A stretch of DNA of 64,000 nucleotides. Origin: Streptomyces sp. NBC_01439 (GTDB lineage: Bacteria; Actinomycetota; Actinomycetes; Streptomycetales; Streptomycetaceae). The position numbers and the translations under genes were made by a program. The notes beneath the pieces were generated by a model, which worked only from the letters and a program-made list of their open reading frames with translations, made no database searches and was not told the origin of the DNA. Positions 3,415-36,822 of this stretch are shown piece after piece. The stretch lies in the NCBI RefSeq assembly GCF_036227605.1, contig NZ_CP109487.1, positions 5,247,001-5,311,000 of the forward strand, read 5' to 3'. Numbering within the stretch: the stretch's first letter is position 1; each line of letters opens with the position of its first letter.

Positions 3415-3639
3415 CGTCTCCGGTTCCTTCCCTCCCCCCGAGGGTGCGCTCGTCCGGCAGACCCTAGCGGTCCCGGCCCGGCGAACGGAATGCCGCTCTT
3501 GGTGAGGGCCTCCGTCAAATGCGCCTATCGCGGGGGAAAATCGGCCTCACTGGATGACAAAGGTCACGGCGGGGCCGCGTTCCGTCCCGTTCAGCGAGAC
3601 GTGTCCGGGCCCCGCCGGGTTGCCTGCGTCACACGATCG

Positions 3640-3835
3640 GCCGCCCCGGTCCGGTCCGGCCCGTTTCGCCCCGGTCCGGCCCGTTCCGACCCCGACCGGG
3701 TACCGGCACCGGGTCCGGCACCGCCGGGCCCGTGCTGCCGTGCTTCGCCGCCGAGCCGGCACTGCCGTTCCGACCCCGACCCCGACCGGGAACCGGCAGC
3801 GGGTCCGGCACCGGCACCGCCGAGCCCCGGATCCG
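3640..3835. repeat. GC-rich near-duplicate repeats in a non-coding gap
   Basis: The 443-bp gap 3415-3857 between two minus-strand genes has no convincing gene. It holds two copies of a ~45-bp GC-rich block (about 3681-3722 and 3767-3822) built from CCGACCCCGACCGG and GGGTCCGGCACC, plus smaller copies of GGTCCGGCCCGTT near 3650-3690. The region can fold into hairpins and may end transcription of the phosphatase upstream region or the NlpC gene's tail. Confidence 0.6.
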
Positions 3836-8179: not shown

Positions 8180-9016
8180 ATGAGCGGGACCACAGCCGAA
8201 GCACTCATGTACGCCTGGTTCGCCCTGGCCCTCCTGTCCACCGGCTACGTCGCCCACGACGCGTTCACCAAGAACCCCGAACTCACGGTGATGAAGTGGG
8301 GCTGGGTGCTGGTGACCCTCTACATCGGCCCGGTCGGCGCCGCGCTCTACGTGCTGTCCTGCAAGGAGCCGCGGCCGGGGACCCACGAGCGGTTCGTGGC
8401 GCCGCTGTGGAAGCAGGCGCTCGGCTCGACCATCCACTGCGTGGCCGGAGACGCGACCGGCATCATGGTCGCGGCCGTCGTCGCCTCGCTGCTCGGCCTC
8501 CCGCCGTGGGCCGACGCCCTGTTCGAGTACGCGGTGGGCTTCGGCTTCGGGCTGCTGGTCTTCCAGGCCCTGTTCATGCGCGACATGCTCGGCGGCAGCT
8601 ACGTGCGGGCCGTCCGCTCGACGGTGTACGCGGAGTGGCTCTCGATGAACTGCGTGATGGGCGCCATGGTTGCGGTGAACGTGATCGTGCGCAGCCAGGT
8701 GCCGGGGGCGCGGGACGCCGGCGACGTGCGCTTCTGGGCGACGTTCTCGCTGGCGGTGCTGGCCGGCCTGGCCTTCGCGTACCCGGTCAACGTGTGGCTG
8801 GTCGCCAACCACCTCAAGCACGGGATGGGGACGGTACGGGCGCTGGGGGAGGGTGGCGAGCCGCTCCCGGCCGCCGCCGCCCACGCGGACGCCTCCGGCA
8901 TGGCCGTGCCGGAGGCGGAGGTGACGGCGGAGCAGAAGACGGCCATGGCGGTGCTGACGGTCCTCTTCCTCGCGGCCGGGGTCCTGCTGGCCGCGATCTT
9001 CGGCCACCTGTCCTGA
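8180..9016 (+). CDS. DUF4396 family integral membrane protein
   Basis: A 278-residue polytopic membrane protein. Hydrophobic segments include AEALMYAWFALALLSTGYVA, MKWGWVLVTLYIGPVGAALYVL, GIMVAAVVASLLGLPPWA, YAVGFGFGLLVFQALFM, a segment around WLSMNCVMGAMVAVNVIV, FWATFSLAVLAGLAFAYPVNVWLV and a C-terminal VLTVLFLAAGVLLAAIFG. The H/D-containing pattern and AYPVNVWLV match DUF4396, of unknown function. The start is uncertain: ATG 8180 has only a weak GGCGGG next to it, and GTG 8123 or ATG 8207 are alternatives. Its 3' end faces the MFS gene. Confidence 0.7.
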   Translation: MSGTTAEALMYAWFALALLSTGYVAHDAFTKNPELTVMKWGWVLVTLYIGPVGAALYVLSCKEPRPGTHERFVAPLWKQALGSTIHCVAGDATGIMVAAVVASLLGLPPWADALFEYAVGFGFGLLVFQALFMRDMLGGSYVRAVRSTVYAEWLSMNCVMGAMVAVNVIVRSQVPGARDAGDVRFWATFSLAVLAGLAFAYPVNVWLVANHLKHGMGTVRALGEGGEPLPAAAAHADASGMAVPEAEVTAEQKTAMAVLTVLFLAAGVLLAAIFGHLS

Positions 9017-9062
9017 CGCGCCCGCCCCGCCCCGCGCCCGCCCCGCGCCCGGGCCGGGCGGG

Positions 9063-10397
9063 TCAGCTTGCCGGGACGGTGTCCGTGGCCGGCGCGGGGG
9101 CCGCGGGGGCCGCGGGGAGCGCTTCGTCCGTCGGGGCGGTGGCGCCGTCGGCCGCTGCCGCCGGGGTCGTCCCCCTGTCGCCCTCGGAGAGGCCCCGCAT
9201 CAGCAGCCAGTAGCCGGCCGCGGCGACCGTGCCGAGGACGGCGGTGGCCCCCCACAGCCAGTCGGACCCGAACCGGTCGATCAGGAAACCCGCCATCAGC
9301 GGCGCGACCAGCGCGGCCACCGCCCAGGACAGGTTGTAGACGCCCTGGTAGCGGCCGCGCCCGTGGACCGGAGAGAGCCGTACGACCAGGCCCATCTGGG
9401 TCGGCGAGTTCACGATCTCGGCCAGCGTCCACACGCACACCGTCAGCGCGTACGTCCACAGCGGCCCGGCGAAGGCCGTCAGCGCGAACCCGTACCCGGC
9501 CAGCAGCGCCGAGATCACCAGCAGCTTCTGCGGGTCGCGCCGCTCGATGAACGCCGTGACCGGGATCTGCAGTAGCACGATCAGCAGCCCGTTCACGGCG
9601 AGGACCAGCCCGAAGTCCCTGGGCGAGAAGCCCGCGGAACCCATTGCGACCGGCAGACCCACCGAGCCCTGCGTGAAGATCAGTGAGATCAGGAACGACA
9701 GCCCGACGACGCCCATGAACCGCCCGTCCCGCAGCACGGTCCCGAGACTGATCGCGGGCTCCTCGCCGGCGGCCGACGCGTCCTTCGGCCGGGCGGGCCG
9801 GTCCGGCCGCGACTCGGGCAGCTTGACGAAGACCAGCACCGCGCAGACCAGCGTCAGGGCGGCCTCGCCGAGGAAGCCGGCGAGGTAGCTGTACTCCGCG
9901 ATCAACCCGGCGGTCGTGGCACTGACGGCGAAGCCGAGGTTGAGGGCCCAGTAGTTGAGCGCGAAGGCCCGTACGCGGTCCTCGGGGCGGACGATGTCCG
10001 CCATCATCGCCGCGACCGCCGGGCGGGAGGCGTTCGAGGTCATGCCGACCAGCAGGGCCACGGCCGCGATCGCCGCCGGGTGCTCCATGAAACCGAGCAG
10101 CGCCACCGAGAAGGCGGTCGAGGCCTGGGCCGCCAGCAGCGTGGGCCGGCGCCCGAGCCGGTCGGTCATCACGCCCGCGACGAGCGAGGAGACGACACCG
10201 CCGAGTCCGTGGAGGGCGACCACGAGTCCCGCGAAGGAGGCCGAATAGCCGCGGTCCAGGGTGAGGTACAGGGCCATGAAGGTGACGACGAAGGACCCGA
10301 GCCGGTTCACCAGGGTGCTCGCCCAGAGCCACCAGAACGCCCGGGGAAGCCCGGACACGCTCTCCCGGACAACCTGTGCCAAACGGGCAGCGGACAT
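9063..10397 (-). CDS. MFS family transporter
   Basis: A 444-residue major facilitator superfamily protein, probably a drug or metabolite efflux permease. Twelve hydrophobic segments can be traced. The MFS loop 2-3 motif is seen as [17 protein letters not shown], and [23 protein letters not shown] is typical of MDR-type transporters. The last ~35 residues are a cytoplasmic Ala/Pro/Thr tail. The start is ATG 10397 ([13 protein letters not shown]) with GGGGGGAT 6-13 nt upstream. It is divergent from gpm, sharing a 153-bp promoter region. The substrate cannot be told from the sequence. Confidence 0.88.
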
Positions 10398-10537
10398 GAC
10401 GGATCCCCCCGGCGGTGTAAGTATCACTTGTACGGCGTGCACATTACGAGCGGCGGGCGTCCGGGCGCCACTCGATTGACGCGCACCGTCAATCCGGCGG
10501 GACCCGGCACCGCGCGCGAGCGTCCCCGGGCGTCCAC

Positions 10538-10543
10538 TAGGCT
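10538..10543 (+). promoter_or_regulatory. -10 element for leaderless gpm transcript
   Basis: TAGGCT lies exactly 7 nt upstream of the gpm ATG, the spacing expected when transcription starts at or next to the start codon. There is no ribosome binding site before gpm. Confidence 0.55.
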
Positions 10544-10550
10544 CGTACGC

Positions 10551-11312
10551 ATGGCCGACGCACCGTACAAGCTGATCCTCCTCCGCCACGGCGAGAGCGA
10601 CTGGAACGCGAAGAACCTGTTCACCGGCTGGGTGGACGTCAACCTCACCGAGAAGGGCGAGAAGGAGGCGGTCCGGGGCGGTGAGCTGCTCAAGGACGCC
10701 GGCCTGCTGCCCGACGTGCTGCACACCTCCCTCCAGAAGCGCGCCATCCGCACGGCGCAGCTCGCGCTGGAGGCCGCCGACCGCCACTGGATTCCGGTGC
10801 ACCGTTCCTGGCGCCTGAACGAGCGCCACTACGGTGCGCTCCAGGGCAAGGACAAGGCGCAGACCCTCGCCGAGTTCGGCGAGGAGCAGTTCATGCTGTG
10901 GCGCCGCTCGTACGACACCCCGCCGCCGGTCCTCGAGGACGGCACGGAGTTCTCGCAGTCCGCGGACCCGCGCTACGCGTCGATCCCGAACGAGCTGCGC
11001 CCGCGCACGGAGTGCCTCAAGGACGTTGTCGAGCGCATGCTGCCGTACTGGTACGACGGCATCGTCCCGGACCTGCTGGCCGGCCGCACGGTCCTGGTCG
11101 CTGCGCACGGCAACTCCCTGCGCGGTCTGGTCAAGCACCTCGACGGCATCTCCGACGCCGACATCACGGGCCTGAACATCCCGACCGGCATCCCGCTCGT
11201 CTACGAACTGGACGCCGACTTCAAGCCCCTGAACCCGGGCGGCACCTACCTCGACCCGGACGCCGCGGCGGCCGCCATCGAGGCCGTCAAGAACCAGGGC
11301 AAGAAGAAGTAG
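10551..11312 (+). CDS. gpmA: 2,3-bisphosphoglycerate-dependent phosphoglycerate mutase
   Basis: Glycolytic enzyme interconverting 3- and 2-phosphoglycerate. The 253-residue sequence is complete: [20 protein letters not shown] at residues 8-27 holds the phospho-histidine (RHGES). It is followed by [27 protein letters not shown] (substrate loop), and the second His in [17 protein letters not shown]. The C-terminal [13 protein letters not shown] matches dPGM. The ATG is preceded by a -10-like box 7 nt away and no ribosome binding site. The gene ends at the left edge of an integrated element; a terminator at 11316-11368 remains attached to it. Confidence 0.97.
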
Positions 11313-11315
11313 GAA

Positions 11316-11368
11316 AAACGATCATGCCCCTGACCTGCGCAGACGACGTAGATCAGGGGCATTCGTTT
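11316..11368. terminator. Terminator of gpm at the left element edge
   Basis: The 10-bp stem ATGCCCCTGA/TCAGGGGCAT (11324-11333 with 11353-11362) is extended by AAACGA/TCGTTT (11316-11321 with 11363-11368) with a 2-nt bulge. It works in both orientations, serving gpm and the convergent integrase. A related hairpin sits at 20231-20275 on the other side of the element. Confidence 0.8.
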
Positions 11369-11370
11369 GC

Positions 11371-11391
11371 CCTGGGCCCTCTGTGGGCCCT
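11371..11391. other. Candidate left attachment site (attL core)
   Basis: A 21-bp sequence, starting CCTGGGCCCT, is identical to 20074-20094. It ends at the last base of the integrase stop codon. It contains a dyad (GGGCCC, 5-nt spacer, GGGCCC). A perfect direct repeat touching the integrase gene is the usual arrangement for an integrated element's end. Confidence 0.6.
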
Positions 11392-12626
11392 CAGCGTGGG
11401 GGACCGTCCGGCCGCAGAGCCCTGCCGAGAGCCTCGCGAGCGCGATCCCGGCTGCTCGGCATCAGGTGGGCGTAGACCTTCAGGGTGAGCCCGGGATCCG
11501 AGTGCCCCAGGTACTCGCTCACGGCCTTGATGCTTTCTCCCACGTCCAGCAGCACGGACGCGTAGAAGTGCCTCAGCGCGTGCATGCCGTGCTCCCGCGC
11601 GGAGGCGTGCTCACGGCTCTTAGCTGCGGGGATGACCCCGACCTTGGCGAGCGCGGGCTTCCAGTGGTCCTCGTTCACCGACGTGCGCCACAGGTGCCCG
11701 CCCTGCGGGCCGGTGAAGATCAGGCGCTTCGTGACGGGCTGGCCGCCGGCGCGCATCCACGGCAGCGTGATCTCCACGGGCGGGAAGAGCTTCATGTGCG
11801 CCTTGAGCGCGTCCGCCACGGGCTCGGGAAGCGGCACGTCGCGTAGCTTGCCGCCCTTCGGCGGAGCGAACACGGGGACGCTCAGGCTCTGCTTGAGCTG
11901 GTGGACGACGTGAAGCGTCCCGTTGTCGAAGTCGAGTTCCTCCACGGACAGCCCCAGGATCTCGCCCTGCCGCAGTCCGCAGCCGGCGCCCACATCCACC
12001 ATGGGTTGGAACCGCTCGACCAGGGCGCCTCGCATGGCGAAGACCCGTTCCGGCTGCCAGGGGACCACGCGTCGCGCGCCCATCTCCGGGAGCGCCACCG
12101 TGCGCGAGTTGCAGGGGTTCCGGGGCAGGCAGCCATCCTCGACGGCAGCGCTGAGGACGGCGCGCACATTGGAGAAGATGACGCGGGCGTACGAGCCGGA
12201 CATGCCGGAGGCTTCGAGCTGCGTCACGAACTCGCGGATGTGGCTCGGCTGGAAGGAGCCCAGCGGACGGTCCCCGATGCGTGGGAAGGCGTGGAGCTTG
12301 AGCTGAGACGTCATCGACGCTCGGGTGTTCGGGTCGCCGCTCTGGCTCGCGAGCCACTTTTCCGCGAACTCCTTGAAGGACGTCCGGGCCGCGCTCGGGT
12401 CGATGTACTGGCCGCGCGCCACGTCGGCGCGGATGGAGCTGAGCCACTGCTCGGCCAGGCGCTTCTGCCCGTCCTCGAAGGACTTGGACTTCTGCTTGCC
12501 GTCAGGTGCGAAGTAGCGCGCCCTGTAGCGCATGCCGGTGCCGTGGCGAGCCGTCTTGGTGCGGACGGTCTTGCCGTTGTCGTTGGTCTCTGTCTTGAAC
12601 CAACGGTCTTGGATGTGGCCAGCCAT
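11391..12626 (-). CDS. int: Tyrosine-type site-specific integrase
   Basis: A 411-residue phage-type integrase catalysing attP x attB recombination. Residues ~1-65 are an arm-binding region (RARYFAPDGKQKSKSFEDGQ) and ~75-165 a SAM-like core-binding domain. The catalytic domain has Arg219 (GCGLRQGEILGL), H349-x-x-R352 (MHALRHFYASVL), His375 (LGHSDPGLTL) and the nucleophile Tyr385 (KVYAHL), so the active site is intact. The stop codon touches the candidate attL. No tRNA gene adjoins either end, so the target appears to be the 3'-flank/terminator region of gpm. Confidence 0.95.
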   Translation of the reverse strand: MAGHIQDRWFKTETNDNGKTVRTKTARHGTGMRYRARYFAPDGKQKSKSFEDGQKRLAEQWLSSIRADVARGQYIDPSAARTSFKEFAEKWLASQSGDPNTRASMTSQLKLHAFPRIGDRPLGSFQPSHIREFVTQLEASGMSGSYARVIFSNVRAVLSAAVEDGCLPRNPCNSRTVALPEMGARRVVPWQPERVFAMRGALVERFQPMVDVGAGCGLRQGEILGLSVEELDFDNGTLHVVHQLKQSLSVPVFAPPKGGKLRDVPLPEPVADALKAHMKLFPPVEITLPWMRAGGQPVTKRLIFTGPQGGHLWRTSVNEDHWKPALAKVGVIPAAKSREHASAREHGMHALRHFYASVLLDVGESIKAVSEYLGHSDPGLTLKVYAHLMPSSRDRAREALGRALRPDGPPR

Positions 12627-12952
12627 GGGGCTGAGTCCTCTCGGTTGGGTGTGCCAGGGAGGCCGGACGGGGGTGTCCGGCGGGCTCTCTGCGGGGGTTC
12701 TGGGGGCTGGTCGGTGGGGTGCCTCCCTGCCTCCCTGAGGGGCTGTCTGCGCAGCTCAGGTGGAGGGAGGCGGTCCAGGGAGGCGGTCAGGGAGTTCTCC
12801 CTGCCTCCCTGGTGCTTCCCTGGGTTTTCGAGGGGTGGGGGCGGGACCCCTTTACCGGCGCTACCGGGCTGGTCAGGGGCGCTACCGCCCCCGCTACCGG
12901 GGCAAAGGGGTAGCTCTACCTGCGGCCCGCTCTCGGACGCTGTGACGGGGAG

Positions 12953-13080
12953 CTACTGCCTACTGCCCACCGGCTAGTGCCTACTGCCTACTGCCTATGG
13001 GCCTGTTCAGGGGCGGTGGGGTGGCTGCTGGAGGGGTTCTACTGCCTAGTGCCCGGTGGGCAGTAGGCAGTAGGCAGTAG
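12953..13080. repeat. Inverted clusters of the 7-mer TACTGCC between int and xis
   Basis: A perfect 21-bp inverted repeat (12953-12973 with 13053-13073) is built from tandem 7-mers. Forward copies of TACTGCC/TAGTGCC lie at 12954, 12961, 12975, 12982, 12989, 13040 and 13047; reverse copies (GGCAGTA) at 13059, 13066 and 13073. The rest of the 481-bp int-xis gap holds GCTACCG copies at 12860, 12881 and 12893 and CCTCCCTG-type repeats at about 12720-12815. The location suggests recombination-directionality or accessory sites. Confidence 0.85.
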
Positions 13081-13107
13081 CTCTGCGTGGAGGATGCCGG
13101 GGGTTCG

Positions 13108-13344
13108 TCAGGCGGCGTCGCGGGTGGCCTGTTCGCGGATCCAGGCGTGGACGGCGGCGGGGTCGTAGCGGATGTGCCGGCCGACGCGGAATCCGGGCGG
13201 GCCGGTGCGCTTCTTGCGCCAGCCGTAGATGGTCTCGATGGGGACGACGAGCATGGAGGCGAGGTCTTCGGGGGTCAGGTACCGGTCGGGGAGTCCGGCG
13301 CGGAGGATCGCGCGGGGGTCGTTGTCCGGGCTGTTGGCGGGCAT
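13108..13344 (-). CDS. xis: Excisionase-like helix-turn-helix protein
   Basis: A 78-residue protein with a MerR/AlpA-like winged helix-turn-helix at residues ~20-70 (YLTPEDLASMLVVPIETIYG, then WRKKRTGPPGFRVGRHIRYD and PAAVHAWIRE). This is the typical excisionase (helix_turn_helix_17) form found beside integrases of actinobacterial elements. It probably binds the repeats at 12953-13080 and steers the integrase to excision; that target is inference. The ATG start at 13344 has GGAGT 11-15 nt upstream. It is separated from the ATPase gene by 250 bp without a gene. Confidence 0.85.
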   Translation of the reverse strand: MPANSPDNDPRAILRAGLPDRYLTPEDLASMLVVPIETIYGWRKKRTGPPGFRVGRHIRYDPAAVHAWIREQATRDAA

Positions 13345-13594
13345 GGGCGGGGTGACTCCTCGTGTCCGTGGCGGGGGTGCTGAGGGTCGGTGCGGTCGCG
13401 GTCCTGGAGAGTTGCTGCATCGCAGCGTCCATAGCGCCCCAGCGTCCGAAGGGTCTCTATCCGCGCAGGTCGGACCCGGTTTGCGGTGTGGACGCTGGTG
13501 TGGACGCTGCGGACGCCGGCGGGGCTAGCGTCCGCAGGGGCTGACGTGCCCGGGCCGCTGGTGCGCGGCCCGGTCCGGTGGTGATCCGGCGGTG

Positions 13595-15214
13595 TCAGTG
13601 CTGCTCAGGGGTGGTGCGGCCTTGCCCGAGTGATGCCACTTCGGGCCAGAGCGGGTCTTGCGGGCGTGTGGACGCTGCGGGTGGGGTGGGGTCGATGCGG
13701 GAGAGGACGAGTAGGCGGTGGCGGTGCCGGTCCTGGCTACGTTGCGTGTCGTCCACGGCCACCCCGATCGACCGCAGGAGCGGGGCGAGCCGTTTGATGC
13801 GCCCGCTTGCCCGGGTGGCGTCCTTGGGCCAGCCCTGCGGCCGGAACCCTCCGGGGAGCGGGAGCTGTTCCAGGAGTTGGGCGGCGGTGCCGCTCCAGGT
13901 CCCGCACTCCTCCACGAGGGTGGCCACGGCTGTGCCGAAGGGGTCGCCTTCGAGCGCGTCCCCGGCGACGTTCGCGGATGTGGCGAGGTAGGAATCCAGG
14001 GTGTGCCACTCCTGGACCTGGTCGACGGCCGCGAGGACCCGGGCGAAGTCGGCCATGCGGGGCATGGAGTCCAACTTGATTCCGGGCAGGACGGCGAGGA
14101 CGGCCGCCAGGAGGTCGAACAGGGCGCCCAAGACGGCGGGTCGGACTGCCTCGAAGGCGGTGTCGAGTTCCTCTTCGGTGCGGCGTTGGTCTTCTTCGAT
14201 GAGCTGCAAGTCGAGCATGAGGAGCCGCTCTGCGAGGTCCCCGGCCAGGGCTCCGGCGTCGATGGTGGTCATGGCGAGGACTCGCCGGAAGGAGAGCACG
14301 ACCACGTCGTCGTCGGTGTAGAGCGCGCGGTCCACGATCCCGTCGCCGGTGACGGCCTTGCACAGGGTGTCGGAGAGCCAGGGTGGGATGGTGCTGATGT
14401 TGTCCAGGCACAGGGCCCAGGAGTTGAAGGCCTGAGCCGACCACGCCTTGACGTCCCGGGGCTGGCTCCGCTTGCTGGCGGGGGAAGGGTCGATGAGGTT
14501 GACGACCATCTGCGCCGTCTTCGACTTCCCCGTGCCCTGCTCGCCCTTGAAGGTGATCACCGGGTGCGGGATGTAGGGGATCCACGCGGCGATGAGCCAG
14601 CCGACGAGCTGGTGGAAGGTGGGTGCGTCCATGTTCAGCAGGGCGTGGAGCTTGGCCAGGCCGTCGCCGTCCAGGACCGGGGCGGGCATGGGCGCCATGG
14701 CGCCGGATCGGCGGAACAGGATCGGGGAGCGGTCCACGATGTGCCAGCCGCCGGCCGACACGGTCACCGCCCGGCCGTCCGCGCTGCCCAGGTCCACGAC
14801 GATGCCGTTCGGGCCGCCTCCCACCCGCAAGTCCACCGGCGCGGGGTCGTCCTTCTCGGCGACTCCCTCCAGGACCATCATGGCGTCCGCCAGCGCGGAC
14901 TGTGAGGCCACGTCGCCGTCGTAGGTGTCGGCGTACTTGCGGGCGAGACGCTGACGCAGTCCGGCCCGGCCGCGCAGGGGGAGGGCGATGTTCGGCCCGT
15001 CGATCGCGACCGCGTACGGGCGGCCGTCGGTCGAGGTGACGAACGTATACCCCTCCCGAGCCAGAGCGACGAGCCTGGACGCTGCCGAAGGCTTCTTCCC
15101 CTCCCCGGCTCCCCGGTCGGTCGGGGTCGATCGGTTGGCCTTTCGCGGGACGGTCGGGGGCTGGGGATCGGTGGTCTTGGCGTGGCCGTTCACGGTGTTC
15201 ACCGTGGTGTTCAC
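13595..15214 (-). CDS. Element-encoded P-loop ATPase (helicase-like)
   Basis: A 539-residue protein. Residues ~45-200 have no recognised domain. The ATPase region begins with FKGEQGTGKSKTAQ (Walker A, ~222-235), then WALCLDNIS (Walker B-like acidic residues) and VVVLSFRRVLAMTTID, and a C-terminal helical region. The layout resembles D5/SF3-like phage and plasmid replication ATPases, so a role in element replication or DNA unwinding is likely but unproven; no primase motif is seen. The GTG start at 15214 has AAGGAG 6 nt upstream and overlaps the HNH stop codon by 4 nt (GTGA), implying translational coupling. Confidence 0.75.
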   Translation of the reverse strand: MNTTVNTVNGHAKTTDPQPPTVPRKANRSTPTDRGAGEGKKPSAASRLVALAREGYTFVTSTDGRPYAVAIDGPNIALPLRGRAGLRQRLARKYADTYDGDVASQSALADAMMVLEGVAEKDDPAPVDLRVGGGPNGIVVDLGSADGRAVTVSAGGWHIVDRSPILFRRSGAMAPMPAPVLDGDGLAKLHALLNMDAPTFHQLVGWLIAAWIPYIPHPVITFKGEQGTGKSKTAQMVVNLIDPSPASKRSQPRDVKAWSAQAFNSWALCLDNISTIPPWLSDTLCKAVTGDGIVDRALYTDDDVVVLSFRRVLAMTTIDAGALAGDLAERLLMLDLQLIEEDQRRTEEELDTAFEAVRPAVLGALFDLLAAVLAVLPGIKLDSMPRMADFARVLAAVDQVQEWHTLDSYLATSANVAGDALEGDPFGTAVATLVEECGTWSGTAAQLLEQLPLPGGFRPQGWPKDATRASGRIKRLAPLLRSIGVAVDDTQRSQDRHRHRLLVLSRIDPTPPAASTRPQDPLWPEVASLGQGRTTPEQH

Positions 15215-15849
15215 GCAGACTCCTTTCGCGGGGTGTGGGCGGGGCCGTGGGGGTCGGAGCACAGTCGGGTGCGGGTCGATCGATCGGCTCGTGACCTGGG
15301 GTGGACGGCCTTGCGGTGGTCCTCGTGAACGCGGTGAACGCGCTGGTGAACACCCGACCGTCCACCCGACTCGACGGCCGTCCGGTCGGCCGACTGCCGG
15401 GCCAGAGCCAGCCGCGCCAGGACCCGCAAAACGCCCAGCGTGAACACCTCGGTCGAGCGGTGAACATCGACCCGATCCACCCGACTTCCACCCGACTCGA
15501 CCAGCGGACTCTCCCCATCCGATGGGGTCGACTGGGCGAGGGTGGAAGCCGGGTGGACGCCGGGGTGGACGGCCGGGGCGTCCACCCCGTCCACCGCCCC
15601 GATCAGCAGCAGCGCGATCAGCAGGGGGAAGCGGTCGGCCTTGGCGTGATTGCACGGCGGGCAGGCCAGCACGAGGTGGCCGGCCGACCACGTCCGTAGC
15701 ACCGACACCGGCACGACGTGATCAAGCGTCGCCTCCCGCAGCGAGGCGAACGGGCGCGCGCAGTAGGCGCACCGCTGCCCGTCGCGGCGGGCCAGCTGTT
15801 CCTTGCGTTGCCGTCGGCGTGCGGAGTTGAGCGGATGCCCTTTCCTCAT
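15211..15849 (-). CDS. HNH endonuclease with repetitive C-terminal tail
   Basis: A 212-residue protein. Residues ~20-80 are a complete HNH nuclease module: zinc-binding CAYC, then ATLDHVVPVSVL (DH-V-P catalytic motif) and LACPPCNHAKADRFP (second Cys pair and N/H). The remaining ~130 residues are low-complexity, rich in Val-His and Arg (GVHQRVHRVHEDHRKAVH), encoded by short GTGGAC/GTGAAC repeats. The ATG start overlaps the sigma-like gene's stop (ATGA) and its own stop overlaps the ATPase start (GTGA), so three genes form a coupled cassette. Small HNH proteins often act in phage packaging or as homing nucleases; which applies here is unknown. Confidence 0.8.
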   Translation of the reverse strand: MRKGHPLNSARRRQRKEQLARRDGQRCAYCARPFASLREATLDHVVPVSVLRTWSAGHLVLACPPCNHAKADRFPLLIALLLIGAVDGVDAPAVHPGVHPASTLAQSTPSDGESPLVESGGSRVDRVDVHRSTEVFTLGVLRVLARLALARQSADRTAVESGGRSGVHQRVHRVHEDHRKAVHPRSRADRSTRTRLCSDPHGPAHTPRKESA

Positions 15850-16745
15850 GCCGCCCGCTCCATGTCCGCGGCACCCAGAGCGCGCAGCACGGGGGCGCAC
15901 ACGGTCGCTCCCATGACCCGCTCCCGGCTGACCCCCAGCCTCTTGGCGATGTCCCGCGTGGGCACCTCCGGGCTCAGGAGCAGCGCACCCCGGGCCACGT
16001 CGTCCAGTCGCAGGAGAACCTCCCGCTGCGCCGCGCTTCGTGCCGCCAGCGCGCGCTGCTCCCACTCCGGCAGTGACTCCATGTCCACCGGGGAGCAGGA
16101 CAGCTCGGGGTTGTCGATCTGAAGCAGCAGGATCGCCGTTTTCGCGAGCCGGTCAGCGGTGGACGCGCTGCACCCCAGACGCTCGCCCATCGCCGTGTGG
16201 GGCATGCCGTCCAGCTTCAGCAGCAGCGCTTCCCGCTCTCGCTCCGGAAGCGCGGCCACCATCCTGGCCAGGTAATCCGGCAGGTCAACCCAGGCACACT
16301 GGTTGGGCAGCAGCGGGCACAGCGTGTTGCACGTGGCGGGCTCCGTCCAGTCCACCACCGTCTCCGAGGACCGCATCAGCGCGAAGTGCTCCGCAATCTC
16401 GCGCTTCACCCGGACGAACAGGACCTTGCGGATCTCCGTCTCGGACCACTCCGGGTGCCCCAGCACATCCGTCGCTCCGCTGCGGGCCACCCGCACCCAC
16501 ATGGACTGAACGACGTCCTCTGCCAGTGCCCATGCCTCGCCGTTCCCCATCCGGGTACCGCACAGCCGGGAGTAGGCGAACCGCACCAAGCGGTCCCCGT
16601 AGGCATCGAACAACACGGCCAGCCGGTCGGACTGCTCGGCCGTCAGCGGAATGATCTCGCCGTTCTCCAAGCGTCGCCCCCCGGGGCCGTTGCCCGTGGC
16701 AGTTCCAGAGATCCGACTCCTACGCTTTGCGACAGTTCCAGGCAT
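15846..16745 (-). CDS. ECF-like sigma factor with extra C-terminal helix-turn-helix
   Basis: A 299-residue protein resembling extracytoplasmic-function sigma factors. The region-2-like segment (~38-85) is LAVLFDAYGDRLVRFAYSRL to DVVQSMWVRVAR; the region-4-like segment (~175-220) is MVAALPEREREALLLKLDGM to LGCSASTADRLAKTAILLL. It continues for ~70 residues with a second HTH (VLLRLDDVARGALLLSPEVP, then TRDIAKRLGVSRERVMG). A Cys-containing linker (CNTLCPLLPNQCAW) joins regions 2 and 4. It is the first gene of the minus-strand cassette and overlaps HNH by 4 nt. It could be a dedicated activator of the element or a DNA-binding replication/packaging adaptor of sigma ancestry. Confidence 0.7.
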   Translation of the reverse strand: MPGTVAKRRSRISGTATGNGPGGRRLENGEIIPLTAEQSDRLAVLFDAYGDRLVRFAYSRLCGTRMGNGEAWALAEDVVQSMWVRVARSGATDVLGHPEWSETEIRKVLFVRVKREIAEHFALMRSSETVVDWTEPATCNTLCPLLPNQCAWVDLPDYLARMVAALPEREREALLLKLDGMPHTAMGERLGCSASTADRLAKTAILLLQIDNPELSCSPVDMESLPEWEQRALAARSAAQREVLLRLDDVARGALLLSPEVPTRDIAKRLGVSRERVMGATVCAPVLRALGAADMERAA

Positions 16746-16903
16746 GATGGGTCTACCCCTTCAAGGGTCGGGGAGCGGCTGACTGCTTGGCGGTAGGGAG
16801 CCGCTCCCTGCTTCGCCCTGGGCCTCTGGCCAGGGATTTTGCATCCAACAGCACCCCATGACAGGGCCTTGCGGCCTCCGATCGGATCGATCGGCGGGCA
16901 CAT

Positions 16904-16950
16904 CCCTAAGGTTCCCTAGGGCACCCTAGGGTGTCAAGCGGTACGCTAGG
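16904..16950. promoter_or_regulatory. CCCTAGGG operator cluster before GntR gene
   Basis: Two perfect CCCTAGGG palindromes (16914-16921 and 16925-16932, 11 bp apart) are flanked by half-sites CCCTAA (16904-16909) and CTAGGGA (16946-16952) within 80 bp of the GntR start. The -10-like TACGCTAG overlaps the last half-site. The spacing on one helix face fits a GntR-family autorepressor controlling both its own gene and the divergent sigma-like gene. Confidence 0.7.
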
Positions 16951-16983
16951 GAAGTAGCCCATTGAGACAGGGGAGTTGACGGG

Positions 16984-17742
16984 ATGCCGGACCAGGCCGA
17001 CAACCGGGCGCCGTACGCGCAGATCGCCGCCCACTACACGGAGCTGATCGCATCGGGGCAGCTCCAGCCGGGCGAACTGCTGCCGAGTATCAAGAACCTC
17101 GCGCAGGAGTGGAGCGTCAGCTCGGCGACCGCCGAGAAGGCGCTGAGGAAGCTGCGCAGCGACGGGCTCGTCAGGGGCATCCACGGAATCGGCACCGAGG
17201 TCTTGGACCGTCCCGCGCCGATGTCCTCAGGCTCTCAGCGCCAGGACCGGGGACGCCACAGCGGGTCGAGCTGGGGGGCCGGAGAACGGTCCGACTCCCA
17301 CGAAGCATCGGTGGTGTCGGCGCCGGCGGACGTCGCTCAGGCGCTGGACATCAAGCCCGGCTCGGAGGTGATCCGGCGGCGCCGTGTCTATCGCGACCGG
17401 CACGGCATCGTCGCCCACTCGACGTCATGGATCCCTGCTCAGTTCGGGAAGGCGATTCCGCAGCTTGCGATGAGCGAGCGGCTGACCGGCGGAACGTCGC
17501 TCCAGCTCATCGCGCAGATCACCGGCAAGCCGATCACCCACCGAATTGACACCGTTGCGGCGCGGCTGCTGACGTCGGAGGACGCGGAACTCCTGGAGCT
17601 GGACAGCGCCAAGCCCCCGCGTGAGCCGGTAGTCGTGATGATGGCCAAGTTCGTCAACAGCGCGGGCGACGTCGTGGAGTACGGAGTCGACCTCGGCAGC
17701 CCGGGACGGACCTGGCAGACGGAATCGGAAGTTACCCAGTGA
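16984..17742 (+). CDS. GntR/UTRA-family transcriptional regulator (KorSA-like)
   Basis: A 252-residue regulator. Residues ~8-72 are a GntR winged helix (APYAQIAAHYTELIASGQLQ, PSIKNLAQEWSVSSATAEKALRKL, GIHGIGTEV). After a Ser/Gly/Asp-rich linker, residues ~105-245 are a UTRA ligand-binding domain (AQALDIKPGSEVIRRRRVYR, WIPAQF, TRTWQ-type end). In pSAM2-type elements the equivalent KorSA silences replication and transfer functions, so it is probably the master repressor of this element. The CCCTAGGG array upstream is the likely operator. Its stop codon overlaps the kinase start (GTGA). Confidence 0.88.
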   Translation: MPDQADNRAPYAQIAAHYTELIASGQLQPGELLPSIKNLAQEWSVSSATAEKALRKLRSDGLVRGIHGIGTEVLDRPAPMSSGSQRQDRGRHSGSSWGAGERSDSHEASVVSAPADVAQALDIKPGSEVIRRRRVYRDRHGIVAHSTSWIPAQFGKAIPQLAMSERLTGGTSLQLIAQITGKPITHRIDTVAARLLTSEDAELLELDSAKPPREPVVVMMAKFVNSAGDVVEYGVDLGSPGRTWQTESEVTQ

Positions 17743-18347
17743 CGGCCGCCGACGGGGCGGTCCGGCCGCTCTGCGTGCTGATGGCTGGACTGCCGGGCTC
17801 AGGGAAGACCACCCTGTCCCGCGCGCTGACGGACCGCGGCTTCGTCAGGCTCTGCCCTGATGAGGAGATGTTCCGTCGGCACGGCGTGTACGGCGTGGAT
17901 TTCCCCCGAGGCACCTTCCCGACCCTTGAGCGCCCGATCCTCGAAGAGATCTCGGTAGAGCTTCAGGCGCACCTCCGCGCCGGGGACAACGTGGTGGTCG
18001 ACCACGGCTTCTGGACCCCGGATGACCGCGCTCGGTGGCACGGTGCTGCGACGGATGCCGGCGCTGCCTCGGTGCTGGTGTACCTGGAGGCAAGTCACGA
18101 GGAGCTCTGGGAGCGCGTGAGTAGGCGGAACGCTAGGCACGAAGCGGATCCGAACTCGATCTACTTCTCCGAGAGCGATCTGACCCGCTACCGCGCGCGC
18201 TTCGTGGCGCCGCAGCCAGACGAGCCCCACCTCGTCTATCGGGGAGACGCTGGCCCCTTGTTGAAGGCGCTGGAAGAGGCTGCGCAGGGCGACCTCGCCA
18301 ACCCGCGGACGCTGGGACAGGAGAAACCTGGTTTCCTGCCCGGCTAG
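17739..18347 (+). CDS. P-loop kinase / zeta-toxin-like ATPase
   Basis: A 202-residue cytoplasmic P-loop protein. Walker A is GLPGSGKTT at residues 17-25. It is followed by RLCPDEEMFRRHGVY, NVVVDHGFWTPDDRARW (Walker-B-like strand with Asp) and YLEASHEELWERVSRRN (lid arginines). This is the pattern of polynucleotide/choline-type small-molecule kinases and zeta toxins. It is translationally coupled to the GntR regulator (GTGA overlap), a pairing common on streptomycete integrated elements. Possible roles are nucleotide or small-molecule phosphorylation or a maintenance toxin; the sequence does not decide between them. It has no visible partner antitoxin of the epsilon type. Confidence 0.75.
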   Translation: MTAADGAVRPLCVLMAGLPGSGKTTLSRALTDRGFVRLCPDEEMFRRHGVYGVDFPRGTFPTLERPILEEISVELQAHLRAGDNVVVDHGFWTPDDRARWHGAATDAGAASVLVYLEASHEELWERVSRRNARHEADPNSIYFSESDLTRYRARFVAPQPDEPHLVYRGDAGPLLKALEEAAQGDLANPRTLGQEKPGFLPG

Positions 18348-18408
18348 CGCGTTGTGATGAGCCCCGAAGCCCCGATTTCCGGTCGGATGCCGGGGTTTCG
18401 CCTATCCC

Positions 18409-18496
18409 TTGCTAGTCGCTAGTTCCCAGGCCAGAGGCCCTCCAAGTTGCTAGGACTGGTGCTAGACCTAGCGCCACCTGTTGCTAGACCTAGCAC
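18409..18496. repeat. GCTAG-type palindromic repeats downstream of the kinase gene
   Basis: Tandem 7-mers GCTAGTC-GCTAGTT (18411-18424) are followed by two copies of the 12-bp GCTAGACCTAGC (18461-18472 and 18483-18494) and a single TGCTAGG (18448-18454). The CTAG-rich palindromes resemble repressor or transfer-locus sites. They open a 1.2-kb stretch (18348-19559) without any convincing gene. Confidence 0.75.
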
Positions 18497-18634
18497 CTGT
18501 TTCCAGGGCTCTGCGAGCGAGAGAAGGAGCTAGAAGGAGCGGCCTTCGGCCGCCGACTCCTGGCAGCTCGCTGCGCTCGCGCTCGCCGCTCAGTGGGGCA
18601 TGGCCGTGTGGGCGACTGGCAGGACGTCATGGGT

Positions 18635-18738
18635 GTGACGCCCCGCGTCACGCCTCGTGGCGCGTGACGGCCTGGCTGGCCTCGGTGCCCTGGACCTGCG
18701 TGACTCTGGCGTCACGGCTACCGTGACGCCCGTGACGC
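18635..18738. repeat. GTGACGC/GCGTCAC inverted 7-mer cluster
   Basis: GTGACGC at 18635, 18723 and 18732 faces GCGTCAC at 18645 and 18709; GTGACGG at 18664 is a variant. The pattern parallels the other 7-mer clusters in this element but uses a different word. Confidence 0.65.
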
Positions 18739-18765
18739 CGAGCCCCCTTTCGATGCGCCGTGGGG

Positions 18766-18873
18766 CGGTTACCGGTTACCGGTTACAGGTCGCGTGGACG
18801 CCGGTTCGCGCTGTTCAGGGCGGGGAGGGGCGGTGTCGTCGGCCTGTAACCGGTAACCGGTAACCGGTAACCG
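18766..18873. repeat. Inverted arrays of the 7-mer GGTTACC
   Basis: Three forward copies (GGTTACC at 18767 and 18774, GGTTACA at 18781) face four reverse copies ending at 18873. A 24-bp stretch (18766-18789) is perfectly inverted at 18843-18866. The spacer between the arms is 53 bp. Confidence 0.85.
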
Positions 18874-19065
18874 CGTCCGATGTGTTTGACCGTTTTGATC
18901 TCCCTGCCGTCGCCCGCTGGCAGCCGTGTGGAAGAGACCACCTGGCCGCGCCTTGGTGGCCTCTTCGTCTCGCTGCCGCGCCGAGTGGGTGGCGTAGCGT
19001 CCGCAGGGGCTTTCCCTCGGGGCAGCTTTGACCTGCGGTGATGCTCTTAGTCGGGGGTGAGTGCT

Positions 19066-19173
19066 GCGGACGCTGCGGACACTGTCGGACGCTAGCCAAT
19101 TCTCTTAGCGTCCGCACGATTCGTGCAGGTCAGAGTAGAGCGAGAGCGTCCAGCGGACGCTGCGGACACTGTC
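19066..19173. repeat. 21-bp direct repeat with GCGGACG/CGTCCGC words
   Basis: Positions 19066-19086 and 19153-19173 are identical. Between and around them lie inverted TAGCGTCCGCA words. A 17-bp relative (TAGCGTCCGCAGGGGCT) occurs at 18995-19011 and again near the excisionase at 13526-13542. Confidence 0.75.
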
Positions 19174-19363
19174 TTCCCTCAACTCTCTAGGACGGCAGGT
19201 ACCCAAGGCTAAGAGCTGCATGTCTCCCGTGGTGCCGACGGCTCTTCAGGTGGCTGCGGCCGTCTTCTCTGAAGAGCCGTCGTTGCCTGCGACTGGAGAG
19301 GCCTTCCAAGGGCGCGGGCGCCCCCACCCGCCCTCTTGGAAGGCCCCCTCCCACGCGGCTCTT

Positions 19364-19474
19364 CTACTGGGTAGTGGGGTGCCCGCCCCACTACCCAGTA
19401 GGCCCCCACTAGAGCTTGTGGGGGCCTTCAACAGCCCGTTTCTACTGGGGACCCCACTACCCACTACCCAGTAG
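19364..19474. repeat. Inverted clusters of TACTGGG/TAGTGGG 7-mers
   Basis: A 16-bp arm (19364-19379) is perfectly inverted at 19386-19401 with a 6-nt loop. A second hairpin (19401-19409 with 19418-19426) follows. Then CTACTGGG at 19442-19449 faces a tandem CCCACTA, CCCACTA, CCCAGTA at 19453-19473. Confidence 0.85.
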
Positions 19475-19559
19475 GCGCCCAGGTTGGCCGCGACTTCCCG
19501 CAGCCACAGGCAAGAGGAGCACCTCCGCCGACGCCGGGGGTGCTCCTCTTGCTTGTGCG

Positions 19560-19781
19560 TCACCGCTCCTGCTGAGCCTCGTAGAGCTCCCACGCGCGTT
19601 CCAGGGTCTCCACCGCAGCCGGGATCGCGCCCCGCTCCTCCAGATACTCCCGTTGGCCGCTGAGCTGCCGCCGACTTGGCCAGGCGGGATCGGCAGCGAC
19701 ATCACGCGCCAAGTCACCGATCGCGCTCTGATCCTTCGCGTGCGTCTTCAACCACGATGTGAAGCCCTGGGTTCGACTCAT
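19560..19781 (-). CDS. YozE_SAM_like domain small protein
   Basis: A 73-residue protein: MSRTQGFTSWLKTHAKDQSA, IGDLARDVAADPAWP, then EYLEERGAIPAAVETLERAW and ELYEAQQ. The FxxWL...D.IGDLARD..AD..WP pattern is that of the YozE sterile-alpha-motif-like family, small helical proteins of unknown function frequent on streptomycete mobile elements. The ATG start at 19781 is chosen because homology begins there; upstream sequence in frame is non-coding in character. It lies near the right end of the element, convergent to nothing, flanked by repeat clusters on both sides. Confidence 0.8.
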   Translation of the reverse strand: MSRTQGFTSWLKTHAKDQSAIGDLARDVAADPAWPSRRQLSGQREYLEERGAIPAAVETLERAWELYEAQQER

Positions 19782-19936
19782 ACCGACATCGTTCCACCAC
19801 CGCGGCGGCGCGGTGGGGAAACGGCAATCCCCAAGCTCACCCCTCTGAAGTGCTCCTATTTGGAAGGCCAGAGTGTGAAAGTCGCGCCGGCCGGGGCGTC
19901 GATGGGCCGCCGCCCGGAGGGTGGTTCTTCCCGTCC

Positions 19937-20053
19937 TTGTCGCTTGTCGCTTGTCGCTTGTCGCCTTAAGCCCCAACTGCTGTCTGGTGCCATGCCGCTC
20001 AACCGTGACCTGGGAAAAAGGACGACAAGCGACAAGCGACAAGACAAGCGACA
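19937..20053. repeat. Inverted arrays of the 7-mer TTGTCGC
   Basis: Four tandem TTGTCGC copies (19937-19964) face three tandem reverse copies (20022-20042, the first with one mismatch) plus a partial copy at 20048-20053. The spacer is 57 bp. The cluster abuts the candidate right end of the element. Confidence 0.85.
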
Positions 20054-20073: not shown

Positions 20074-20094
20074 CCTGGGCCCTCTGTGGGCCCT
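20074..20094. other. Candidate right attachment site (attR core)
   Basis: Identical over 21 bp to 11371-11391; bases on both sides differ immediately. It follows the last 7-mer cluster by 20 bp. A weaker alternative right end lies at about 20231-20287, where a terminator related to the one after gpm is followed by the same TTGCCCTGGG. Confidence 0.6.
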
Positions 20095-20230
20095 GCGAGG
20101 GTGACCTGGGGCGACGGACAACGACCAACGATGACCACTCGGCAGCAGGTCAGGCGGGGTGCGCGGGCCTCTGACCAGGGCAGAAAAACGGGCCCGCCAG
20201 ACCCAGGGCAAGAAGTAACCCTTCCCCACG

Positions 20231-35635: not shown

Positions 35636-35751
35636 GGTGATGAATCCCTTCTACCGGCAGGAACGTGCCGGACGATCCGAGTGGAAGGAAGAATGGGTCT
35701 AGTCCACCGAAATGGACTTCCGGCCGACGCTACCCGCCCGGACGGCTCCTG

Positions 35752-36746: not shown

Positions 36747-36822
36747 GCCGCCTTAGCTCAGTTGGCAGAGCGGTTGCCTTGTAAGCTCCAGGTCATCGGT
36801 TCGATTCCGATAGGCGGCTCCA
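36747..36822 (+). tRNA. tRNA-Thr (anticodon TGT), CCA encoded
   Basis: A 73-nt cloverleaf plus encoded CCA: acceptor GCCGCCT/AGGCGGC, D arm GCTC-AGTTGGCA-GAGC, anticodon loop CTTGTAA (TGT at 36780-36782), T arm ATCGG-TTCGATT-CCGAT. The anticodon stem GTTGC/GCTCC has only three of five Watson-Crick pairs (mismatches T-C at 36774/36888-equivalent position 36788, and T-T at 36775/36787), which is odd for a functional tRNA. The other arms are perfect. A strong terminator follows at 36864. Confidence 0.88.

Follow-up and report, generated by a model that had tools for sequence, protein, structure and literature searches.

Heptamer arrays in a Streptomyces integrative element without a detected TraB resemble the clt sites of several TraB classes

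The window analysed here is a 64,000-nucleotide stretch of Streptomyces sp. NBC_01439 (NZ_CP109487.1, positions 5,247,001 to 5,311,000), taken from a 9.58-Mb genome in a single contig, and it holds an integrated element of ~8.9 kb between 13-bp direct repeats at window positions 11294 and 20203. The element contains arrays in which 7-bp units face their reverse complements, and four of these, with the words TTGTCGC, TACTGCC, TACTGGG and GGTTACC, look by their sequence like candidate copies of clt, the cis-acting transfer locus of Streptomyces-type conjugation, for class A, class B (subtypes B1 and B3) and class C of the DNA pump TraB, respectively. As no pump of its own was found and the docking-site-like sequences are of four pump kinds, the element probably rides on whichever helper is present, and we consider it likely to be an integrative hitchhiker equipped with a panel of clt mimics for several TraB types. 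Sequence-level support comes from the position of such arrays at traB genes, the matching of array word and TraB C-terminus, the lack of a detected TraB in the element and the similarity of the sites themselves.

The element is rich in heptamer arrays of one design

A sequence-only reading of the window had described arrays of constant design and varying word. This description holds, and each word was present in both orientations where that reading had placed it. Counting forward plus reverse-complement copies, TACTGCC occurs 5+3 times, GTGACGC 3+2, GGTTACC 2+3, TTGTCGC 4+2, TACTGGG 2+2 together with TAGTGGG 1+4, and GCTAG 5+2. Exact tandem pairs of period 7 face each other across 62 bp (TACTGCC), 60 bp (GGTTACC) and 59 bp (TTGTCGC); the suggested arm spacing of ~50-60 bp thus fits three arrays, but not GTGACGC and TACTGGG, which are less regular. 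Across the window and 400 kb of the same genome, there were six facing pairs at period 7 (four in the element, from three arrays; one in locus L010 and one in locus L022), two at period 9 and none at periods 4, 5, 6, 8, 10, 11 and 12.

We also applied a looser cluster test, in which one exact 7-mer has to occur at least 5 times within 140 bp and in both orientations. This detected 7 clusters in the element, whereas the 55-kb flanks had 2 and 20 stretches of 20 kb from the same chromosome had 6 in all, with 2 of these 6 located in L010, another integrated conjugative element; 100 dinucleotide shuffles gave 0 clusters. TACTGCC, GTGACGC, GGTTACC and TTGTCGC passed the test, and TACTGGG/TAGTGGG (mixed words) and GCTAG (a 5-mer) missed its threshold. 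By this measure the ordinary chromosome does not equal the element in array density. Homologous elements retain such arrays as well, though the words are not always identical.

Four arrays match sites of different TraB classes

The sequence-only reading knew of no named element of this form, but clt, the docking site of the FtsK-like TraB pump on double-stranded DNA, has it. The clt of pWTY27 comprises 16 bp within traA and the adjacent 159 bp; efficient transfer depends on it, and TraA footprints four 7-bp TGACACC repeats in it (PMC3583192); TraB is described as recognising 8-bp repeats at clt (PMC4170104, PMC12857230). The clt sites of pWTY27, pJV1, pSVH1 and pIJ101 consist, like the window arrays, of short direct and inverted repeats, and lie there by the transfer gene and are bound by an FtsK-like Tra protein (PMC3583192). 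The window differs in that its element groups several clt-like types and has no detected tra gene. Its clt-like arrays (no strand assigned) and their matches, with L and G numbers denoting loci and genomes, are:

12953..13080, TACTGCC array, clt-like, TraB class B subtype B1; 72% over 139 bp to the L103 array
18766..18873, GGTTACC array, clt-like, TraB class C; 82% over 106 bp to L010
19364..19474, TACTGGG/TAGTGGG array, clt-like, TraB class B subtype B3; 80% over 113 bp to L150
19936..20053, TTGTCGC array, clt-like, TraB class A; 84-85% over 48-49 bp to L086, L092 and L098

Each window array had an alignment score that clearly exceeded the maximum from its 100 or 200 shuffles. For TACTGCC, the matching array in L103 sits 24 bp past the traB stop (score 82 versus a null maximum of 29), and for TACTGGG, the array in L150 follows traB (103 versus 31). 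L010, the partner of GGTTACC, is a second integrated element in the window's genome; its site lies inside the tra cluster, and the spacer is shared too. The TTGTCGC matches to the traB-adjacent sites of L086, L092 and L098 cover the core and one arm, with an otherwise dissimilar spacer, and 79% over 114 bp was found to L096, a locus of another genome in which TACTGGG and TTGTCGC arrays are adjacent.

The GGTTACC array matches further to plasmids (88% to L038, which lacks a TraB match, and 90.7% over 107 bp to a plasmid). In total, its region matched 23 plasmid records, 21 from Streptomyces and 2 from Kitasatospora, eight of which were examined. L039, L043, L045 and L046 carry a TraB_C-like protein and the array; L038, L040 and L042 have the array and no match to any of five TraB references; L044 has no exact GGTTACC array. 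By annotation, L038 has GntR, sigma-like and HNH genes as in the window element. Three viral contigs contain the GGTTACC pattern, and window positions 18560-18900 gave no phage match. Plasmid BLAST returned no match for the TACTGGG stretch and only short matches, in other bacteria, for the TACTGCC stretch.

Arrays of this kind accompany traB genes across Streptomyces

To place such arrays relative to traB, loci were gathered by protein searches, which were positive in 26/150 genomes for the class B query, 10/150 for class E, 23/150 for class D and 4/179 for class C, and by repeat patterns. The scorer received 107 loci (L084-L153, L218-L254; at most 30 loci per search), and scoring excluded those that had no match, contained an internal stop, lay too close to an end or encoded a protein identical to another. 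With an array defined as a 7-mer present at least 4 times within 170 bp directly after the stop, 80 of the 84 non-redundant scored loci from classes A, B, D and E had an array after the traB stop (within 220 bp). This applied to 31/31 loci picked by the TTGTCGC or TACTGCC pattern and to 49/53 from protein searches, the misses being L145, L146, L244 and L246. Shuffles scored in 7/1680 cases and other windows of the same loci in 52/840, some of which may hold rep-side arrays.

A pattern search for facing TTGTCGC units with a 45-75 bp gap found 42 places in 37/392 genomes, with a conserved spacer in many, and the backward control had no match in the 392 genomes. Of these places, 37 loci were examined with ~10 kb on each side (G178, G301, G372, the second G230 place and the window were left out). 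In 29/37, the array begins 2-14 bp past the stop of an FtsK/SpoIIIE-like protein of ~700 residues, which is TraB. The other 8/37 had no TraB reference match (E<=1e-15) within ~10 kb: five (L089, L108, L110, L111, L113) are related to the window element and share its Rep (70-76%), L096 is a deleted relative, L114 is a serine-recombinase element with many arrays and L106 lies between two transposase genes.

In their home elements, TTGTCGC, TACTGCC and TACTGGG arrays are ~30 bp or less from the traB stop. GGTTACC arrays are placed differently, ~1.4-1.6 kb upstream of the gene in 6/6 genomic TraB_C loci and in 4/4 TraB_C plasmids examined. In class D, arrays start at the stop codon and the top word is TGACACC in 10/27 loci, with a shifted or variant form in several more; this is the repeat footprinted by TraA in the clt of pWTY27 (PMC3583192).

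Separately, L149 and L152 encode TraB-like proteins with other C-termini and have TGTGGGA or CTCCCAC arrays past the stop. The S. anulatus plasmid NZ_CP109526.1 (L041) carries a TGACACC array at the traB end and a foreign-type TTGTCGC array ~3 kb off; the two lie at 377-478 and 3573-3670.

The repeat word tracks the C-terminus of TraB

Among 43 proteins of classes A and B, TraB pairs with the same word had a mean identity of 0.72 in the motor and 0.74 in the last 60 residues, versus 0.69 and 0.35 for pairs with different words, although pairwise identities are not independent observations. The word thus tracks the C-terminus more than the motor. In L120, the protein is closest over its length to the class B reference, yet has a class-A C-terminus and a class-A word. 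Within class B, changes of one or two bases in the word (TACTGCC, TACTGGC, TACTGGG) parallel changes in one short C-terminal stretch, for example GRSREAVRKT, RRSRQAVRAA and GKDRKTVRAG.

Eight array-side proteins of classes A, B and C and one of class D were scanned against Pfam. All matched FtsK/SpoIIIE weakly, one of the nine exceeding the Pfam cut-off, and most had a helix-turn-helix profile match at the C-terminus. HTH_23 matched 29/29 class-A and 7/8 class-B C-termini at E<=0.1, mostly below Pfam cut-offs, and a PDB profile search with TraB C-termini gave nothing significant.

The sequence-only reading had proposed that structure or period is selected. The design is indeed kept, but the word, as the 7-bp sequence that the matching TraB end would read, seems to be selected more than a fixed period. 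Unit spacings are 7 in class C (19/19), mainly 7 and 14 in class B and mainly 12, 7 and 17 in class A; period 7 as a generally selected feature was ruled out because classes D and E use other, irregular spacings. The best candidates for binding the arrays would be TraB proteins of other elements, not the element's own Int, Xis-like, GntR or sigma-like proteins that had been suggested.

The element integrates itself and has no detected TraB

The main features of the element are as follows:

11294..11306, no strand, left attachment repeat CCAGGGCAAGAAG, direct repeat with 20203-20215; in the 3' end of a putative phosphoglycerate-mutase-like gene, named by reading
11391..12626, minus strand, tyrosine integrase (Int); Pfam Phage_integrase 3.4e-14
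13106..13345, minus strand, small reading frame without a Pfam match; presumably excisionase-like (Xis-like), named by position
13595..15214, minus strand, Rep, ATPase of 539 residues with a Walker-A-like motif (by reading); no Pfam match
15583..15849, minus strand, HNH endonuclease; Pfam HNH 3.9e-07
15846..16745, minus strand, sigma-factor-like helix-turn-helix protein; Pfam Sigma70_r4_2 1.7e-11
16984..17742, plus strand, GntR-UTRA regulator; Pfam GntR, UTRA
17739..18347, plus strand, P-loop kinase or zeta-toxin-like protein; Pfam AAA_33 8e-24, Zeta_toxin 5.4e-09
19560..19781, minus strand, YozE_SAM_like small protein; Pfam 8.5e-09, start inferred from the frame
20203..20215, no strand, right attachment repeat CCAGGGCAAGAAG, direct repeat with 11294-11306

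Rep is the diagnostic gene of the element family. An overlapping open reading frame at 13737-15518 was rejected as a shadow frame of the real Rep gene.

In Int, Xis-like protein, Rep, GntR and integration at the 3' end of a gene, the element is like actinomycete integrative and conjugative elements (AICEs), and it has both a site-specific integrase and a replication gene. It differs from AICEs in the TraB/FtsK-type translocase: none of five TraB references or their C-termini matched (E<=0.01), and the Pfam scan of the element's main genes contained no FtsK. With its own integration and no complete transfer apparatus detected, the element would fit among integrative and mobilizable elements. 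Such elements, including those called hitcher elements, likewise integrate by themselves and depend on a helper for transfer, and those described in the available text of PMC5704250 and PMC11389934 use relaxase/oriT systems. In the same text of PMC5704250, the TraB route is mentioned solely in connection with conjugative plasmids and integrative and conjugative elements.

Other arrays and a possible role as replication origins

Further arrays of the element, of which CTCCCTG, AGCGTCC and TCCACCC go beyond those of the sequence-only reading, are (no strand assigned; family members are the window element and 34 relatives):

12723..12811, CTCCCTG/CAGGGAG array before int; in 27/35 family members
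13424..13533, AGCGTCC array beside rep; adjoins the rep stop in 34/35 family members
15476..15587, TCCACCC array
18409..18496, GCTAG array; in 19/35 family members, often near the kinase gene
18635..18738, GTGACGC array with GACCTGCGTG core; similar sequence occurs in two TraB_C elements and one plasmid
19068..19161, second AGCGTCC array

Most of the 35 family members have a second AGCGTCC copy elsewhere, and by position and recurrence the AGCGTCC arrays are probably the element's own replication iterons. The CTCCCTG array is probably related to Int/Xis and not to clt. The GTGACGC array is 70% over 115 bp to L264, 82% over 40 bp to L010 and 75% over 97 bp to L154. Its pattern was found in 8/246 genomes, where most inspected places were a rep-side site of another word.

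TGCGTCA/GTGACGC arrays adjoin a rep-like gene in L156, L158, L159, L161 and L165 (by eye) and a rep relative at L256:6597-6746 (by tblastn), and these rep-side arrays of other elements are likely origins.

These data raise the question of whether all arrays are iterons, some for the element's own Rep and others copied so that foreign Rep proteins replicate the element. The recurrent AGCGTCC site next to rep and the rep-side TGCGTCA arrays speak for this, as do some relatives of the window element in which TGCGTCA is distant from their own rep, and RepA of pWTY27 is reported to bind a ~105-bp inverted repeat with 7/8-bp units (PMC3583192). In contrast, the 13424-13533 AGCGTCC array is the only one to lie beside rep when compared with TTGTCGC, TACTGCC, TACTGGG and GGTTACC, the home elements of these four words have them at traB or within the tra cluster, and the word tracks the TraB C-terminus. 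We therefore regard iterons as an unlikely explanation for the panel as a whole.

Relatives and potential helpers

A search for Rep in the genome collection gave 50 loci, of which 29 were kept for having at least one further element gene and no TraB match. The 21 dropped loci (L186, L190-L203, L206-L209, L211, L215) mostly had a Rep of 57-63% and several carried TraB_D. Scored against 17 catalogued traB words, a catalogue that is incomplete, and with some contigs short, the 29 relatives had one word in 7 cases, two in 3, three in 1 and none in 18. The five relatives found by TTGTCGC had one word (3) or two (2). The window element has four distinct catalogue words. Among 32 TraB-bearing loci, 30 had one word, 1 none and 1 two.

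The window's genome holds a TraB_C element and TraB_D genes. A TraB_A-type locus co-occurs in 3/5 genomes of the TTGTCGC-found family members (G023, G268, G015), which is no more than suggestive.

Several results weigh against a panel of clt mimics. In the census, 18/29 relatives show no catalogued word at threshold. The TraB-bearing sample was itself picked by word (29 by TTGTCGC, 2 by TACTGCC, 1 by GGTTACC), so one word per TraB locus is not an unbiased census. Reversed words also passed in 1/29 relatives, 1/5 TTGTCGC-found relatives and 2/32 TraB-bearing loci; the sole pass in the window comes from the TACTGCC array, as reversing the catalogue word CCGTCAT yields TACTGCC. A resident partner is known for GGTTACC alone, since the window's genome gave no match for TraB_B at E<=1e-60 or for TraB_E at E<=1e-40, and class A, which is close to B in sequence, had no separate search. 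Similar arrays also adjoin rep genes, so that an array by itself is no proof of a clt, and GTGACGC and GCTAG have no tie to a TraB. Class B pairs with different words share up to 0.88 of the C-terminus, and L106 has the TTGTCGC site with neither TraB nor the element's genes.

A model of helper-dependent transfer and its alternatives

Excision, binding, TraB loading, mobilisation and the benefit to the element are steps that we infer. In a cell with an active matching helper, the helper's TraB would recognise the heptamers through a C-terminal winged helix, load onto the excised circle and then pump the element into a recipient, and several words would give a wider helper range. Loading of TraB from both sides by the facing arms is speculation. 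As the TraB pump would move double-stranded DNA, neither a nick nor a relaxase is to be expected. More generally, we think it fairly likely that tra-less integrative elements form a class in Streptomyces that gathers clt sites for TraB pumps of several specificities, so that many helpers can pump one element as double-stranded DNA.

A parallel exists in the staphylococcal pWBG749 system. The oriT of its conjugative plasmids falls into five subtypes, each paired with a specificity protein, and mimics of every subtype occur on non-conjugative plasmids, with specificity switching (PMC8136818). The proposed clt mimics of the window element would likewise be matched by specificity factors. The difference lies in the machinery, a relaxase and single-stranded DNA there versus, as proposed here, a TraB pump and double-stranded DNA. 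In the best reading, the clt-mimic panel is the double-stranded-DNA counterpart of oriT mimicry. If true, site mimicry would no longer be confined to the relaxase systems from which it is known but would also apply to conjugation with double-stranded DNA, and a route would be suggested by which small plasmids and islands lacking transfer genes spread in Streptomyces. The arrays supply candidate clt sites for many such elements and a first word-to-TraB table, by which an element's helpers would be predictable from its DNA. As far as their available text goes, open-licence papers on such arrays, clt mimicry and TraB hijacking (PMC9513070, PMC3218068, PMC5704250, PMC11389934) raise the question and describe no such element.

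Alternatively, the arrays could be scars, clt pieces left by the decay of conjugative elements once integrated nearby. Tandem integration at a single site is possible for such elements (PMC9513070), and the deleted relative L096 retains two arrays. However, neither the window element nor L089, L096, L106, L108, L110, L111, L113 or L114 had a match to the five TraB references (E<=0.01), the sites keep both arms and are packed into compact non-coding stretches, and the same array kinds recur in several relatives, which makes decay improbable.

A panel of foreign TraB sites would also fit if the arrays titrated helper TraB and so blocked competing elements instead of gaining transfer. The presumably low copy number of the integrated element would argue against titration, as would the retention of such a site by small plasmids without a TraB match, and we hold this to be more doubtful still. 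Heptamer repeats have been reported in other bacteria, such as cyanobacteria. That the arrays are functionless products of slippage, as their tandem units and the short TACTGCC-like stretches in plasmids of unrelated bacteria might suggest, is largely contradicted by their location at traB, covariation with TraB and conserved spacers, and can be set aside as very improbable.

Additional observations

The octamer TGACCTGC was considered as a universal core and rejected, as it was present in 23/33 class A and 5/10 class E loci, but in 1/14 of class B and 2/27 of class D. It occurs beside heptamer arrays in 31/84 traB loci (23 A, 5 E, 2 D, 1 B), ~14-fold over background, and in the window at 19029 and 19125. 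In L114 (positions 8500-11800, genome G165), ~3.2 kb of mostly non-coding DNA past the serine recombinase gene contains about nine arrays that differ from each other. Several of them include TGACCTGC, and the TraB references had no match near this stretch.

TACTGCC-like short repeats occur at 12-13 places per record in two Shinella plasmids (NZ_CP086611.1, NZ_CP131131.1), which belong to unrelated bacteria. Inside both ends of the window element lies a perfect 21-bp direct repeat (11371-11391 and 20074-20094), perhaps the arm sites of the integrase. Outside the element, the window has ordinary chromosomal features such as an msiK RNA at 35639-35697 (minus strand) and a tRNA-Thr gene at 36747-36819 (plus strand).

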